This document shows, piece after piece, positions 1,557 through 8,465 of a DNA stretch of 50,663 nt. This stretch comes from Verrucomicrobiales bacterium (lineage in GTDB: Bacteria > Verrucomicrobiota > Verrucomicrobiia > Limisphaerales > CANJXF01). Numbering within the stretch: the first letter of the stretch is position 1; every line of letters starts with the position of its first letter. The notes under the pieces were generated by a model that was given only the letters and a program-made list of their open reading frames with translations, made no database searches and had not been told where the DNA came from. The stretch covers positions 1 through 50,663 of the forward strand of contig CANJXF010000029.1 in NCBI GenBank assembly GCA_947478865.1, written 5' to 3'. The position numbers and the translations under genes were made by a program.

Positions 1557-2528
1557 CTAGAACAAACTGTTCACCGCTGTTCCCAAAATGCTGAGCGGGC
1601 CGGTGTCTTCAAGGCTTTCCGTGGCCTTATCTAGTTTTTGGAGGGAGAGCTTCACATTTTTCAACAGGCTTTCGTCATTGACGAGCTGCCCGACCGATCC
1701 CTGGCCGCGGTTTATTTTTTCCAAAATCTCTTTCAGGTTCGTCATGGCAGCGGCTGTTTCAGAGTAAAGCTTTTCGTCCTTCGCGAGCTTCCCGAGAGTT
1801 CCGTGGCCCGCATTGATATCGTCCACGACCAACCTGGCGCGGCTGATCGTCACCTTAATTTCCTCGGAGGTCGACTGGAGGTTGGAAACGGTATTGATCG
1901 CCGATGTGTACAAGGCCTCATCGTTGATCAGCTTGCCAATGGTCCCTTTGCCTTCCGCAATTTGAGAAGAAATGGTCTGCAGGTTCCCGAAAATCGTGGT
2001 CAACTTTGGCCCGTTTTGTTTCAAGAAATCGGTGAACGGCCCGAGCAAATTATCAATCTTATCGCCGGTGAAACTTGCGGTCAGGTTTTCCACGTTGCCG
2101 GCCACTTTATCGAGTTTGGCCATCATTGCGGTGAGGTCCGGCTGCTCGGCCGTTTGCAAATACGCGCCATCGGCCGCCTTGACACCCTTGGAAGTTCCGA
2201 AATCAAGCGAGACAAAATTTTCGCCCATCAAGCCGGTGAATTTGATGGTCGCGGTGCTGTCCGTTCTCACATCGGCATTGCGATCGAGCTTCATCGTCAC
2301 GTTCACCTGGTCGTTGGTGATCTGGATTTTCTCAACCTGGCCAACCTGCACCCCAGCGAGCTTGACCCGGTCGCCGACTTTGAGTTCCTGGACATTTTTG
2401 AAAAGGCCATGCACGCGATAACCTTTTTTCAAAAAGGCGGCGCCGCCGAGCATTTCGAGGATGATGAAGGCGGTAATCAGCGCGAGGGCAAAGAATATCC
2501 CCAGCCGTGTTTCAAGCGTGTTTTTCAT
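1557..2528 (-). CDS. mlaD: MlaD-type MCE substrate-binding protein
   Basis: This 323-aa protein is the periplasmic, membrane-anchored lipid-binding part of an Mla ABC system that moves phospholipids between inner and outer membrane. One N-terminal membrane helix (about residues 9-32) is followed by a single MCE domain (about 36-115, with KVGDRVKLAGVQVGQVEKI). The long C-terminal part is helical and has three related blocks at about 193, 241 and 275, each reading G-x-G-(T/S)-x-G-x-L-x-x-D-E-x-L. The start codon overlaps the stop of mlaF by 4 bases. The E. coli protein is about 183 aa, so this one has an extra arm of roughly 200 residues, a layout seen in other MCE proteins. Confidence 0.9.
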   Translation of the reverse strand: MKNTLETRLGIFFALALITAFIILEMLGGAAFLKKGYRVHGLFKNVQELKVGDRVKLAGVQVGQVEKIQITNDQVNVTMKLDRNADVRTDSTATIKFTGLMGENFVSLDFGTSKGVKAADGAYLQTAEQPDLTAMMAKLDKVAGNVENLTASFTGDKIDNLLGPFTDFLKQNGPKLTTIFGNLQTISSQIAEGKGTIGKLINDEALYTSAINTVSNLQSTSEEIKVTISRARLVVDDINAGHGTLGKLAKDEKLYSETAAAMTNLKEILEKINRGQGSVGQLVNDESLLKNVKLSLQKLDKATESLEDTGPLSILGTAVNSLF

Positions 2529-3298
2529 GGAGTGGTTCGGGTTCGGTCGAGCGTCAGTTCAGCGTGGATGAATTTTTTGATCAACGGATCGGAGTGGTTT
2601 TTAACCTCGTTGGGTGTTCCGATAAACAAAATTTTACCTTCATTGATAATCGCAATCCGGTCCGCGACGCCGAACGCCAAATCGCGATCATGCGAAACGA
2701 CGATGGATGTGACTTGAGTGCGCCTTTTGAGATTCAAAATTTCCTCGGCAATCGTCACCGCCATCAATGGATCCAACTCGCTGGTGGGCTCGTCGTATAA
2801 AATCAGTTGCGGCTCGATCACCAGAGCGCGCGCCAGGGCGACGCGTTTTTTCATGCCGCCGGACAGTTCGCTCGGGGAACGATTTTCCAGGCCTTTCAAG
2901 CCGACAACTTCCAGGCTTTCTGCCACGACGCGGGCGATATCCTCGGGCGGCCTCAAGCGGTGTTCCGTGAGATACAGGCCAACATTTTCGCCGACGGTCA
3001 GCGAATTGAGCAGCGCGCCGGATTGAAACACCATCGCCATGCGGACCTTGTCCATCACGCCCGGTTTTTGAATCGATTCGCCATCAATCAGAATCTCGCC
3101 TTGATCGGGAATTTCCAGGCCGATGATGTGTTTAAGCAGAACACTTTTGCCGCTGCCACTTGGCCCCATGATGACGAACACTTCGCTGCGATGGACCTCG
3201 AAATCCAATCCCCTGAGCACGGGAACGCCGTCAAAACTTTTGCGCAAGCCATGCACTTGCACACTGACGCTATGAGAATTCTTCGAGTGGTCGCTCAT
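2525..3298 (-). CDS. mlaF: MlaF-type ABC ATPase
   Basis: This is the cytoplasmic ATPase that powers the Mla lipid transporter with MlaE. The Walker A motif GPSGSGKS lies at residues 45-52, the signature is LSGGMKKRVALARAL, and Walker B with the catalytic glutamate reads LILYDEPTSELDP. The H-loop follows in IVVSHD. The length of 257 aa fits. The ATG at 3298 sits two bases after the mlaE stop. A TTG two codons upstream (3304) would overlap mlaE and is less likely. The gene is translationally coupled to both neighbours. No MlaB (STAS) or MlaC gene is present here. Confidence 0.92.
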   Translation of the reverse strand: MSDHSKNSHSVSVQVHGLRKSFDGVPVLRGLDFEVHRSEVFVIMGPSGSGKSVLLKHIIGLEIPDQGEILIDGESIQKPGVMDKVRMAMVFQSGALLNSLTVGENVGLYLTEHRLRPPEDIARVVAESLEVVGLKGLENRSPSELSGGMKKRVALARALVIEPQLILYDEPTSELDPLMAVTIAEEILNLKRRTQVTSIVVSHDRDLAFGVADRIAIINEGKILFIGTPNEVKNHSDPLIKKFIHAELTLDRTRTTP

Positions 3299-3300
3299 CG

Positions 3301-4041
3301 TCAAAAATTAATCAGGATTCGGGTCAGGAAGTAATCAAGAATCAAAATCAGGACGATGGAATTCACGACCGCCTTCGTGACGGACCGCCCGATGCCGCGA
3401 GGCCCGCCAATGGTTTGCAAGCCCTGATGGCAGGAGACGACACCGATGACGAGCGCGAAGACAAAGCTCTTGATCAAACCGTTGGCGACATCGCCGACAT
3501 CGACCACCTGCCGCAAATTGTTGAAATAGGCCTCGAAGCTGATCCCGATCATCTGGTTGTAGGCGGAAACCAGCGCCCCACCAAACCAGCCGACCATCAC
3601 TGAAAATATAACCAGAAGCGGCAGCGCGACAGCGATCGCCAGAAGCCGCGGCAGCACCAGGTAATGGATCGGATTGATGTTCATGGTTCGAAGGGCATCA
3701 ATTTCCTGATAGGCGCGCATCGAACCGATTTCTGCAGCCATGGATGAACCGATGCGCCCGGCAATCAAAATGGACATCATCACCGGACCGAGCTCTTTGG
3801 CCATCGAGACCCCAACCATTCCGCCGATGACATTGCCGAGACCGCGCTGCACCAGCACGGAGCCCGCCTGGAGCGCCAGAACGCCGCCGATGAACAGGGA
3901 GAGAATGCAGGCCATCAAGAGGCTGGCGTTGCCAATCTCGAAAAGCTGATCAAGCGTTTTCTGGCGCTGACGCCAGGCAAAAGGCAATGCCTGAATCGTG
4001 CGCCAGAAAAGCAGAAGCATTTCTCCAATGTTCTGAAACAT
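3301..4041 (-). CDS. mlaE: MlaE-type ABC permease
   Basis: The 246-aa integral membrane permease forms the channel of the Mla phospholipid transporter. It shows the family features: an amphipathic N-terminal segment, then helices including GGVLALQAGSVLVQRG, the coupling region with KELGPVMMSILIAGRIGSSMAAEIGSM split over residues around 80-110, and a C-terminal membrane segment ending in ILDYFLTRILINF. It is the first gene of the mlaE-mlaF-mlaD set in transcription order. Only about 56 bases separate its start from the end of the repeat protein upstream, so cotranscription is possible. Confidence 0.92.
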   Translation of the reverse strand: MFQNIGEMLLLFWRTIQALPFAWRQRQKTLDQLFEIGNASLLMACILSLFIGGVLALQAGSVLVQRGLGNVIGGMVGVSMAKELGPVMMSILIAGRIGSSMAAEIGSMRAYQEIDALRTMNINPIHYLVLPRLLAIAVALPLLVIFSVMVGWFGGALVSAYNQMIGISFEAYFNNLRQVVDVGDVANGLIKSFVFALVIGVVSCHQGLQTIGGPRGIGRSVTKAVVNSIVLILILDYFLTRILINF

Positions 4042-4097: not shown

Positions 4098-5543
4098 TCA
4101 CGGTTTCCCCATTGAGGCAGTGTTTCGCGGCTCGCGCCCGAATGGAATGTAAAACAGCCGCCAACGGTCGGCTTGCGCGCTGGATTCATGTTGGACCATT
4201 CCAAAAAGGGCCGAGGTTTTCGTTGTGGAAGGAGTCATGTCGCGGCGATAAAGATTCCAAAGGAGAGATTGGCTGGAGGCTTTGGTTTTTGGATTTTTTT
4301 CCGAGCGCCAGAGCGACCAGAGCGGCGAATAATCGCGTTCCACGCTTTTGTTGGTCGGCAAAAACGGCTCGAGCAACGATAAAACCTGCAGCCGCTGTTT
4401 GCCTTCAAGATCGCGGCGGAAAGTGTAAAACGGCAAGAAATCGACGCGGCGCATTTGATCTTTGGTTTCCAAATTAGTTTCGCGAAGGTCCGAGTAGAGG
4501 AAGAACAGAATCCGCGTTCGCTCCCGTTCCAGAGGCGGCGATTTGAGGCGGTTGACTTTGTAAATCGGCCAGAGGTAAAACTTGCTCTGAAGGTTGGTGG
4601 TGGCCGCCTGGCTGTAGAAAGGCCAAATTCGAGAGGTGTTTTTTCCTTCTCCATGCGCAAAGACAATGAAGGGCCACGGGCAGCCGACTTCATGATAATT
4701 TTTTTCACGGTCATCAATCACCGTCAATCCCAGAGGCCAAGGTGATGAGAAGGAGTCGCGTTTGGGCGAATGTTGCGTCGTAAAGAGCGGCAGAACCGAA
4801 AGTTCGCGCGATGGGTTTTCGGTGCCGATTCCTGTCGTGTTTTTCAAGAAAACCGGCCAGAGCACAAAACGCTTATCGTAACCGCCCAGGATTTCGATTT
4901 CGTCATACCGGTTGGTGCGCTGGGTCACTTGCTTTTGCTCCATCCCGACCAGCGGCCAAAACTGCCAACCGTGCATGGCATCGCCCTGTCGCAAATGAAA
5001 AATGGGATAAACGTAGTTGGTAGTGACGACATCTTTTTTGATGGTCCGCGCGTAAAGAGGGAAGGCAGCGAAATGGATTTCGTCGCGGAACAACCGGTTT
5101 TTCAACGTCCCATAAAAGGGGAACACCGCCGTATAATTAAACTCAGGAGTTTTCGACCGTTGCTCAAAGTAAACCGGGAACAGGGTGAATCGGCGATTTT
5201 GCTGTTCGTTTTGGGTCTTTCCTCCGGAAAAGGCGAACAGTTGCACAATCTGGAACCGATACTCGCCGCCGAATCGGTCATAGGTCAGGAGCGGATATAA
5301 AATGTCGATCTCTTCGGCTTCGACGTCAGGATCATAGGTGCGGGAAAAAAGCGGAGGAACGGCGATTTGCTGCTGAGATTCCTTTTGTTCGGAGTAAAAC
5401 AAGGGCCCCGCCGCCTCGGTTCGTTTTCCCGGGGCCAGCGTGAGAGAAAATTCTTCGTAAATCGGGCCGATAGAGGCGTCCGCTCTAGCTCCCGAGAAAG
5501 AGCAAGCGCAGAAGATGCAGATGGCGATGCGGACGAAGTGCAT
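4098..5543 (-). CDS. Secreted protein with about 16 aromatic-Pro-aromatic repeats, function unknown
   Basis: The family was not recognised. The 481-aa protein begins with a likely signal peptide (MHFVRIAICIFCACSFSGARA, about 21 residues). The body repeats a short hydrophobic motif, aromatic-Pro-hydrophobic-aromatic, at about residues 46, 63, 83, 122, 141, 161, 179, 196, 229, 251, 269, 290, 307, 325, 347 and 370, for example FPVY, FPFY, FPLY, WPFY and WPIY. Spacing is about 15-25 residues, with charged and polar residues between, and there are weaker related stretches near the C-terminus. Such alternation suggests beta strands, so a beta-barrel or beta-solenoid in the outer membrane or periplasm is possible. 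It lies between the HpnN-like transporter and mlaEFD on the same strand, which hints at a role in envelope lipid transport. That is inference. Confidence 0.75.
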   Translation of the reverse strand: MHFVRIAICIFCACSFSGARADASIGPIYEEFSLTLAPGKRTEAAGPLFYSEQKESQQQIAVPPLFSRTYDPDVEAEEIDILYPLLTYDRFGGEYRFQIVQLFAFSGGKTQNEQQNRRFTLFPVYFEQRSKTPEFNYTAVFPFYGTLKNRLFRDEIHFAAFPLYARTIKKDVVTTNYVYPIFHLRQGDAMHGWQFWPLVGMEQKQVTQRTNRYDEIEILGGYDKRFVLWPVFLKNTTGIGTENPSRELSVLPLFTTQHSPKRDSFSSPWPLGLTVIDDREKNYHEVGCPWPFIVFAHGEGKNTSRIWPFYSQAATTNLQSKFYLWPIYKVNRLKSPPLERERTRILFFLYSDLRETNLETKDQMRRVDFLPFYTFRRDLEGKQRLQVLSLLEPFLPTNKSVERDYSPLWSLWRSEKNPKTKASSQSLLWNLYRRDMTPSTTKTSALFGMVQHESSAQADRWRLFYIPFGREPRNTASMGKP

Positions 5544-5729: not shown

Positions 5730-8465
5730 TTACCTCGGTTCCTCCGAACTCGGTGGCGATTGTGCATTTTCGCCACCGGGTTTTTTAAATTTCCAACCGA
5801 CTCGCATTAGCAAGTTCAACAAGGCCGGCAGGAAAGTAAGTGCTGCCAGCATACAAGTTGTCACACCGACGGACATGACAAATCCCAGACTCGCAATCCC
5901 CTTATGTTTTGCGAGAATCAAACTTCCGAATCCCGCGACGGTCGTCATTCCCGAAACCAGAACAGCCTTGCCCGTGCTCTTTCCAAGGATCGCCGGTGTG
6001 CTCTCTTCCACAAACCGATTCAAAATGTGTATGCCATTGGTCACGCCGATTCCAATGACGAGTGGCAGAGTCATAATATTCGCAGGATTAAAGGGAATCT
6101 CAAAAACACCCATTAATCCCGCCATCCACGCTGCGCCAATCGCGACCGGCAACAGCGCCAGCACCACGGCGACCAGCGAGCGGAAATGAATGAACACCAG
6201 AATCGCGATTGCGCCCAGGGCGTACCAGGCGGCCTCTTCGTAGCTGTCCTTCAGCAACGTTGTGTACTCAAAAAGTTGAACCGGTGTTCCCGTGACATCC
6301 GGATCAACCGTGCGCAATTCCCGCACAAATTCCTCCTGGTTTTCGCGCTGCCAGACATCTTTCTTGGGATACACTTGCAGAAGGTATTTTCCGGTCACCC
6401 CGATAAAGCGGTTGCGCAGTGCGGGAGGAAGGTCGTCCGAGCGAATCCGGCCGGTCGCATCCTGATTTTTGAGCGCTGTGAACGTATCGCCAATATCCGA
6501 AAACAAAGCGTTTTGAAATTGCGTCAGACGCAAAGCGGTCTTGTTCTGCGGTCGAAGCATTTCTTTCCGAAGGTCAACAATTCCCGAACGCATCGAGAGT
6601 AAATTATCAGCCAGCTTTGCGTCCTCTTTCACGGTAAGTTCCGCCGCGAGACCCAGGTAGCCTTGCAAGGCCCACAAGGTTTGGCTCAACTCGGGAATGT
6701 CGATCGGCTCCGGATCAATCTGCGCAAAATGGATCAGAGAAACATCGGCCGTGATTTGCCGGACCAACGCCAGGTTTTTGGATTGATCGTCGGTGAGAAA
6801 TTCAGAAATTGGATCCACGCTGGCCACCGTCGGGAGCTTCTTCACTTTTTCTTTTAGCTCGGCCAAATGTTCGAGATTTGTCGCAACAACCGCCCCGAAC
6901 AGAACTGATTTTTCGGCGGATTCAATCAGCTTCTGCTCGAACACCACCGCCGGCAGTCCCTGGCTTTGCATGTTGAGCAGGTTATAATCGAAATGCACCT
7001 TGCGAAATTGCGCGACGGCCAGCCCACAAAGAACCGCCGTGACCGCAACCACCAGGACCGGGCGCCGCAGCCAAAGGTTCTCGATCCTGGCCCGTCGATC
7101 CACTGCTGGCGCCGCCCCGGAATCAATCACGTTTTGCCGGCCGCGCAGGAGCAAAACCGGCAGCAATGTCATCATTGGTATGAGGCACACGAGCATTCCA
7201 CCACCGCAAATGATTCCCATTTCCTGGATGCCTTTGAAGTTGGTCAGAGCCATCGCGAAAAATGCGCCAGCCGTCGTAAACGCACCGGTGAAAATTCCAA
7301 TGCCGGTGTTGACCATCGCAATTTCAATAGCCTCGTTGGGGCTCTTGCCGTGGCGCAGCTCTTCCTCGTAACGGGTGATCAAATGCACCCCGAAGTCGAT
7401 GGCTAACCCGATGAGAATCGGAACGAACGTAATCGTCAGAATGTTGAGGTGACCAACGGCCAGGGTGGTGTAGAGCATCGTGTAGCCAAGCCCCACGATC
7501 AGGCAGAGGGTCGCCTTGAGCGGCCGCCCGGTTTGGCTGTAGCCATAGATAAAAATCAACGCGCAAACCACGAGCGAGACGATGCTGGCAACAGTGGAAT
7601 CGAATTGCGACTGGGCCATTTCGTCGTATTCGAGAACCGGTTCGCCCGTGATGCCGACGTTTAACCCAGGGACTTCGAACTGCGTTTGCTGCACCAATTC
7701 GCGCAATCGCTCTACCGCACGGCCATTTAATTCCTCGGTCAACGCACGGGTTGTGACGAGGTAAATCCGCCCTTGGGAAAACGTGATGTAGATTTCGCGT
7801 TCCGCCTCGTCGCCCGCGCCGAACAACGCGTTTAATCCCGGCGACGGTGCGGTTCCGGGTCGTTTTAAACTTTGCGATGCCTGAACGATGATCCGTTCGA
7901 GCGCCGGCATCGCTTTGATCAGCGATTCGTTCTCCGCATTTTCTTCCTGCCGCGCCGTGCGAAACTGACGGTTGACCAGGCCGAACAGCGAATTGAGATT
8001 CGTCGCTTGCGTGAACTGGTCGATGAAAGGGCGAAAATCCTGCAACGTCTTTTGCAGTTCCTTGAGGTTATCTTCGGGCACGAACAACAGCGCTTTTCGA
8101 CCAAGCATTTTCAAGTCGCCCTTGTAAAAAACATCGGCAAACAAGTTCGTTTCCGCTTCGAGCCGCGCACTCAGGCGCTCGACGAATTGCCGATTCTTCT
8201 CCATCAATTCGCTTTCCACCACCACGACCAGATCGTCCTGCGTTGGAAACTCCTTTTTAAACTTCAGGAAATTCTGGTGATAAAGCTTGTCCGAGCCGAC
8301 GAGGTCGTTGCGGCTGGTGTCGAATTGCAGCTTCTTGATGGTGAAGCCAACGCCAAAGAGAAAAAGCAGGATCTGTGGATAGAGAAAAAGTTTCGGCCGG
8401 GCGCAAACGGCGCGGGCCAGCCGGCGCAACAATCGGACTGCTAAGGAATCGGGTGACTTGCTCAT
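5730..8465 (-). CDS. HpnN-like RND (MMPL) family lipid transporter
   Basis: The 911-aa protein has the two-fold RND layout: one membrane helix (about 26-45), a large periplasmic domain, a block of five or so helices (about 285-440), then a second helix, periplasmic domain and helix block (about 765-895). The N-terminal periplasmic pattern (FDTSRNDLVGSD followed by the helix QNFLKFKKEFP and DDLVVVVES) matches the hopanoid-transporter HpnN subgroup. Those proteins export hopanoids or other lipids to the outer membrane. No hopanoid synthesis gene is visible here, so the substrate is open. It starts 24 bases downstream of yebC and is followed, after 186 bases, by the repeat protein. Confidence 0.82.
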   Translation of the reverse strand: MSKSPDSLAVRLLRRLARAVCARPKLFLYPQILLFLFGVGFTIKKLQFDTSRNDLVGSDKLYHQNFLKFKKEFPTQDDLVVVVESELMEKNRQFVERLSARLEAETNLFADVFYKGDLKMLGRKALLFVPEDNLKELQKTLQDFRPFIDQFTQATNLNSLFGLVNRQFRTARQEENAENESLIKAMPALERIIVQASQSLKRPGTAPSPGLNALFGAGDEAEREIYITFSQGRIYLVTTRALTEELNGRAVERLRELVQQTQFEVPGLNVGITGEPVLEYDEMAQSQFDSTVASIVSLVVCALIFIYGYSQTGRPLKATLCLIVGLGYTMLYTTLAVGHLNILTITFVPILIGLAIDFGVHLITRYEEELRHGKSPNEAIEIAMVNTGIGIFTGAFTTAGAFFAMALTNFKGIQEMGIICGGGMLVCLIPMMTLLPVLLLRGRQNVIDSGAAPAVDRRARIENLWLRRPVLVVAVTAVLCGLAVAQFRKVHFDYNLLNMQSQGLPAVVFEQKLIESAEKSVLFGAVVATNLEHLAELKEKVKKLPTVASVDPISEFLTDDQSKNLALVRQITADVSLIHFAQIDPEPIDIPELSQTLWALQGYLGLAAELTVKEDAKLADNLLSMRSGIVDLRKEMLRPQNKTALRLTQFQNALFSDIGDTFTALKNQDATGRIRSDDLPPALRNRFIGVTGKYLLQVYPKKDVWQRENQEEFVRELRTVDPDVTGTPVQLFEYTTLLKDSYEEAAWYALGAIAILVFIHFRSLVAVVLALLPVAIGAAWMAGLMGVFEIPFNPANIMTLPLVIGIGVTNGIHILNRFVEESTPAILGKSTGKAVLVSGMTTVAGFGSLILAKHKGIASLGFVMSVGVTTCMLAALTFLPALLNLLMRVGWKFKKPGGENAQSPPSSEEPR

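Follow-up and report, generated by a model that had tools for sequence, protein, structure and literature searches.

A secreted beta-hairpin-repeat protein encoded beside mlaEFD, a candidate partner of Mla lipid transport in Verrucomicrobiota

The window analysed here, a stretch of 50,663 nucleotides from a Verrucomicrobiales bacterium, encodes MlaE, MlaF and MlaD (PF02405, PF00005 and PF02470, all above cut-off) in adjacent overlapping genes between positions 4041 and 1557, and thus holds the core of an Mla operon. No match to PF04333 (MlaA) or PF05494 (MlaC) was found in the genome of the window (assembly 97% complete), so the canonical pair of MlaA and MlaC was not recovered there. Which protein, then, meets MlaD on the outer-membrane side? 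PMC10665443 describes the MlaD of PVC bacteria as having no C-terminal barrel and MlaABC as mostly proteobacterial, and it suggests “as yet unidentified proteins”. Beyond that suggestion, open-licence full texts yielded no earlier account of an Mla partner from Verrucomicrobiota or PVC bacteria, nor of the gene directly upstream of mlaE in the window. We describe this gene here and refer to it as X (Table 1).

Gene X and its repeat array

The open frame of X fills its interval exactly, starting with an ATG at position 5543; the plus strand of the same interval has stops within the frame translated. mlaE starts 56 bp downstream of X, and 4-bp overlaps join mlaE to mlaF and mlaF to mlaD. Against NCBIfam, MlaF matched many ABC-ATPase models, none above its own cut-off among the matches listed. 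The MlaD of the window has a long C-terminal extension, and the MCE domain is its only Pfam domain above cut-off.

Table 1 Features of the window around gene X, with the evidence for each.
Feature	Position	Strand	Evidence
Gene X, encoding a secreted protein of 481 aa with beta-hairpin repeats and no family assignment	4098..5543	minus	Open frame
Predicted Sec signal peptide, residues 1-22	5478..5543	minus	By eye; AF2 helix at residues 2-15
Repeat array, residues 27-468, ~22 beta-hairpin units	4140..5465	minus	Motif counts, position profile, 45 DSSP strands
Sole long internal helix of mature X, residues 399-409	4317..4349	minus	DSSP on the AF2 model
mlaE, lipid ABC permease	3301..4041	minus	PF02405, 247.6 bits; TIGR00056 above cut-off
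mlaF, ABC ATPase	2525..3304	minus	PF00005 and operon position
mlaD, 323 aa	1557..2528	minus	PF02470, 71.1 bits; MCE domain at residues 35-111
HpnN-like RND/MMPL transporter, upstream of X	5730..8465	minus	PF03176; TIGR03480, 582 bits, below the cut-off of 752

An earlier note on this DNA, made from the letters alone, had called X an unrecognised protein that stands between an HpnN-like exporter and mlaEFD. The Pfam and NCBIfam matches of the flanking genes agree with that placement, and the searches with X itself agree with the rest. X matched no Pfam family at E ≤ 1, hence neither PF04333, PF05494 nor MORN, and no NCBIfam model. Among the sequences of solved structures (PDB), a profile of 81 X sequences found just one match, at chance level (E 0.97). 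When 53 sequences of the X family were searched against Pfam, the sole family at E ≤ 0.1 was DUF6421, in one member, and MORN was again absent. As these profile searches gave no match, membership of X in the MORN, MlaA or MlaC families was rejected. A search for paralogues of X in its own genome gave one match only.

Each hairpin turn of the array carries the motif [FWY]-P-hydrophobic-[FYW] or a degenerate form of it. The strict motif, [FWY]P[hydrophobic][FYW], occurs 7 times in mature X against 0.25 expected, and a loose form (hydrophobic-P-hydrophobic-hydrophobic) 15 times, where shuffled sequences averaged 2.5; neither count was attained in any of 20,000 shuffles. The motifs are mostly spaced by 17–22 residues, and the gaps hold degenerate copies. 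With these included by eye, some 22–24 units extend from residue 27 to 467. The hydrophobicity profile, for which 16 units were aligned on the proline over 81 sequences, gave hydrophobic fractions of 0.79, 0.80, 0.97 and 0.90 at P-2, P-1, P+1 and P+2, and at most 0.45 elsewhere within 10 residues. Invariant positions are few among the 53 sequences, the most distant of which is 24% identical to the X of the window, and are mostly motif prolines. Because the counts exceed those of the shuffles and the motif prolines are invariant in relatives, the recurring aromatic-Pro-hydrophobic-aromatic motif that had been reported for X is confirmed. The regularity of the repeat stands too; the former estimate of about 16 repeats over some 330 residues falls short of the longer array.

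Signal-peptide cleavage was guessed at ARA/DAS (…GARA/DAS, read by eye). No lipobox occurs in the X of the window, and a simple lipobox pattern matched 3 of 53 and 2 of 81 sequences of the two alignments; one further member of the 53-sequence set (L060) has an SGC site, seen by eye, that the pattern missed. Therefore no outer-membrane anchor is evident.

Five long relatives of 865–1425 aa have the same [FWY]P[FL][FY] turns (L201, 5812-9687; L202, 4899-9173; L203, 4636-8709; L205, 2-3265; L206, 5958-8552), and no mla genes lie nearby in the stretch read. In L201–L203 the X-like repeats run on into a helical-looking region. L206 and the shorter L207 each show an apparent lipobox by eye.

Neighbours and phyletic distribution

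Synteny was read at named loci. The best 80 of 115 relatives form a set that we label Limisphaerales, since the nearest named relatives are titled Limisphaerales, Pedosphaera and Verrucomicrobia subdivision 3, although a few of the 80 bear other names; 79 have enough downstream sequence. mlaE follows X directly in 65 of these 79 testable loci, with mlaF and mlaD as well in 64, and an RND gene lies upstream of X in 62 of 75. Both flanks are testable at 74 loci, which divide into 48 with RND and Mla neighbours, 12 with Mla only, 13 with RND only and 1 with neither. At 14 of the 79 loci mlaE is not found beside X, and in 13 of these 14 X stays with the RND gene. Twenty wider loci (L081–L100) represent other families within the class and the phylum, with X 23–28% identical. 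mlaE, mlaF and mlaD follow X in all 20, and an RND match adjoins it in none. At 20 loci chosen among the most diverged X matches (L181–L200), mlaE follows X in 10. Upstream neighbours of X vary in the 14 wider loci inspected. The wider-locus counts thus indicate that the X-mlaEFD unit is conserved, and that an adjoining HpnN-like gene is confined to one order. Positions were taken from tblastn. When a script applied a tighter overlap criterion, adjacency was scored at 63 of 80 and 19 of 20 loci; L110, L137 and L086 fail that criterion, yet tblastn sets MlaE directly after X in each.

The expectation that homologues would cluster with mla or hpnN genes is therefore upheld phylum-wide for mlaEFD, and within Limisphaerales, not in the wider loci, for HpnN. 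The MlaD beside X is long, with approximate medians of 329, 333 and 330 aa (taken over 62, 20 and 9 loci in the respective sets), as against 147–151 aa for MlaD in those EFDC(A) operons that were read.

At three Limisphaerales loci without mlaEFD beside X (L143, L150 and L175), X is followed in the same orientation by a gene that looks by eye like a glycosyltransferase. In family f60, mlaE occurs without adjoining mlaF or mlaD at L215, L217 and L224.

Among 58 genomes of the same order, X is present in 54, MlaA in 9, MlaC in 1 and MCE proteins in all 58. For 288 genomes of the phylum a wider profile was used, which found X in 143; MlaE is present in 267, MlaA in 113 and MlaC in 30. The 143 comprise 126 genomes with strong matches (E below 1e-20) and 17 with weak ones (E 1e-10 or weaker). 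The weak matches were counted as absent in the main table and dropped in a second, with the same conclusion. Strong X and MlaA occur together in 12 of the 288 genomes, X only in 114, MlaA only in 101 and neither in 61 (Fisher test, 3e-21, which ignores relatedness). The corresponding counts for strong X and MlaC are 7, 119, 23 and 139 (p 0.02, which likewise ignores relatedness). A partial answer to relatedness comes from a hand count of families: f62, f68, f91, f93 and f99 each hold members with X and without MlaA as well as members with MlaA and without X. Of the 24 genomes in f62 that have X or MlaA, 17 of the 19 with X lack both MlaA and MlaC, and each of the 5 without X carries the two.

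MlaE is present in all 126 strong-X genomes, because 20 of the 21 MlaE-negative genomes are listed, none of them with X, and the remaining one was deduced to be G315, which is X-negative. G315 is MlaA-positive and so stands outside the group with neither X nor MlaA. Fifty genomes that are not listed as MlaE-negative have neither protein; therefore MlaEFD can exist without X or MlaA. No X-like gene was seen upstream of mla in the upstream stretches viewed in genomes without X and MlaA.

Where X and MlaA share a genome, they lie in separate clusters in the cases examined, a survey of MlaA contexts that leaves out G094, G100, G106 and G146. G158 and G266 have an X-mlaE-mlaF operon (mlaD was seen in G158; the contig of G266 ends) and a separate mlaE-mlaF-mlaD-mlaC-mlaA cluster. 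In G234, X-mlaEFD is accompanied by a second cluster, mlaE-mlaF-mlaD-mlaC, with MlaA mapped next to it. G116, G225 and G327 have X-mlaEFD, and mlaA-mlaC elsewhere with an RND gene; in G328 (viewed in part, as G278), MlaA is beside an RND gene.

MlaA and MlaC occur with an RND transporter and without mlaEFD at L232, L234 and L236, and MlaA alone with RND at L242. The former arrangement suggests that MlaA-MlaC can serve another lipid exporter. In families f74, f79, f90, f92 and others, the MlaA domain lies in frames of about 600–880 aa, as against about 260–300 aa, possibly a domain fusion.

Predicted fold

AF2 on X alone gave a pLDDT of 29.9. This run was superseded by one with an alignment of 81 sequences (X and 80 relatives from the named loci), which gave a mean pLDDT of 91.6 and a pTM of 0.79. 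By DSSP, the model is an all-beta hairpin-repeat ribbon of 45 strands of 3–8 residues (~6). Judging from DSSP and sequence, proline turns and polar loops would connect the strands in alternation, giving a meander of some 22 hairpins in which the aromatic-proline turns all lie on the same side.

The VIA-align 2 top rows for X include MORN1 (Z 10.0 and 9.9, with a loose rmsd of 10.9–11.7 Å over 160–162 residues), the CPAP/TCP10 G-box (Z 8.9–9.4) and the single-layer sheets of OspA; Z values of this size may reflect merely a common arrangement. X superposes loosely on the MORN and G-box structures, at 5.7–11.7 Å. A segment of 18 strands, residues 140–305, aligned with the walls of the porins OmpU, OpdO and maltoporin at 4.0–4.9 Å over 135–153 residues (Z 5.8–7.6), and the ribbon is therefore probably curved at this segment. 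Foldseek found no global match to X; its listed rows, which include WD40, megalin and teneurin, have TM values of about 0.1–0.2 normalised by X. In a library of viral structures, MORN proteins were among other repeat and tail proteins matched to X.

A new regular beta barrel or solenoid had been suggested for X. The prediction of a regular beta architecture is of high confidence; the barrel and the wholly new fold are not retained. Absence of a fold from the VIA results is not evidence for a new one, and the architecture of X is not wholly new, because its nearest known folds are MORN, the CPAP G-box and the OspA single-layer sheets. X is predicted to be built of tandem beta-hairpins, which may form an elongated antiparallel sheet like that of MORN proteins (TbMORN1, TgMORN1) and the G-box (VIA Z 9–10). 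Unlike them, it is predicted to be secreted, has no Pfam MORN match and superposes only loosely. Its consensus, hydrophobic-[FWY]-P-hydrophobic-[FY], also differs from the MORN consensus YxGEWx2Gx3GxG given in PMC7725318. X is a widespread, previously uncharacterised component of the verrucomicrobial Mla operon, and represents a new protein family with a predicted MORN-like architecture.

A proposed role beside MlaEFD and its rivals

The clustering of X with mlaEFD and its occurrence mostly where MlaA is absent support the earlier suggestion of an outer-membrane or periplasmic partner of lipid transport. We think it probable, with a fair margin of doubt, that X is a dedicated periplasmic or outer-membrane-side partner of MlaEFD in much of Verrucomicrobiota and replaces MlaA and the carrier MlaC there. 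X would be exported by Sec and fold to an extended ribbon built of some 22 beta-hairpins, with an aromatic ridge formed along one edge by their W/F-P-hydrophobic-Y turns. MlaE and MlaF would move phospholipid at the inner membrane, and the long MlaD (~330 aa) would span the periplasm. At the distal end X would make contact with MlaD, and its aromatic ridge may take lipid from, or give it to, the inner leaflet of the outer membrane. The adjoining HpnN-like RND lipid exporter is probably served by X as well in Limisphaerales. The location of X, its binding to MlaD, its contact with lipid and the direction of transport are what we infer here. An analogy is TbMORN1, which according to PMC7725318 co-purifies with phosphatidylethanolamine and has an aromatic-lined groove. 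TbMORN1 did not, however, bind vesicles or membranes in that paper; a sheet like X therefore need not contact the membrane. Also against this role stand the 50 genomes with neither X nor MlaA, the loci at which mlaE is not found beside X, and the want of an evident outer-membrane anchor.

Like MlaA-MlaC, X is encoded with mlaEFD, is largely present where the other is absent and is a presumed distal partner of MlaD. In contrast to that pair, it is an all-beta repeat protein without PF04333 or PF05494 matches and mostly without a lipobox, and it is one gene upstream of mlaE, whereas MlaA-MlaC are two genes downstream of mlaD. The system of the window resembles MlaEFD of Veillonella parvula in its long MlaD and in a genome without MlaA or MlaC. 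The distal part in V. parvula is the C-terminal barrel of MlaD itself, as PMC10665443 describes, whereas here it would be the separate secreted protein X. A further comparison is PqiC of the MCE system PqiABC, which PMC10897342 presents as an octamer that forms a toroid at the outer membrane. X is like PqiC in its proposed place, capping an MCE protein at the distal end; unlike X, PqiC is a lipoprotein.

Another reading makes X itself the bridge, a periplasm-length, aromatic-lined beta-hairpin ribbon that would let phospholipids slide from MlaD to the outer membrane or back. The 45 short strands (about 6 residues each), which follow one another along the sequence, and the restriction of hydrophobic and aromatic residues to one end of each hairpin are in keeping with it. 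A span of about 190–200 Å is close to the width of the periplasm, and the bridge reading is based on X reaching that span if straight. At the rise of MORN1, about 80 Å per 9 repeats in PMC7725318, the ~22 hairpins of X would extend over some 190–200 Å if straight. The same source describes TbMORN1 as interacting with the aliphatic chains of lipids. However, the segment that matches curved porin walls suggests that the ribbon may coil and not extend, and the long MlaD encoded next to X is by its length a bridge candidate itself. We regard this reading as possible and rather unlikely. Slightly more doubtful still is its fuller form, in which X would be a new bridge-like lipid-transfer protein with an aromatic track between MlaEFD and the outer membrane, unrelated in sequence to MCE, AsmA/TamB or VPS13-type proteins, that replaced the MlaA-MlaC shuttle in much of Verrucomicrobiota.

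X might instead be a structural envelope scaffold, a protein-protein module without any part in lipid transport that merely lies in one operon with mlaEFD. PMC7725318 argues that MORN repeats serve as modules of protein interaction, and the long relatives carry similar repeats away from mla genes. A scaffold would leave the exclusion of MlaA and the conservation of the operon unexplained, and we judge it improbable.

That X belongs to the HpnN-like RND transporter, with its place beside mlaEFD secondary, has a low probability in our view. The retention of the RND gene at nearly all Limisphaerales loci that lack an adjoining mlaE would fit, as would the clustering of MlaA-MlaC with RND genes elsewhere (L232, L234 and L236). 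Against this, the 20 wider loci all have mlaEFD beside X and gave no RND match, for which reason X as a partner of HpnN only was set aside, and the 12 Limisphaerales loci with Mla neighbours only keep mlaE beside X with no RND gene.

Outer-membrane beta-barrels have strands of about nine or more residues with alternating lipid-facing hydrophobics, and a C-terminal aromatic residue. A barrel or pore through which lipids cross the outer membrane would suit the signal peptide, the all-beta prediction and the partial alignment with porin walls, but is the least likely of these readings and was rejected as a transmembrane barrel, as the strands of X are too short, both faces are polar away from the proline turn, round which alone the hydrophobics lie, and there is no C-terminal aromatic signal (the X of the window ends in P, and the final residue is F in just 1 of 53 and 1 of 81 sequences).

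As the probable partner of MlaEFD, X is a concrete candidate for the missing Mla piece in Verrucomicrobiota, and it opens the route by which lipids reach or leave the outer membrane of this phylum to direct tests. It also suggests that the outer-membrane end of Mla may be swappable for an unrelated protein.
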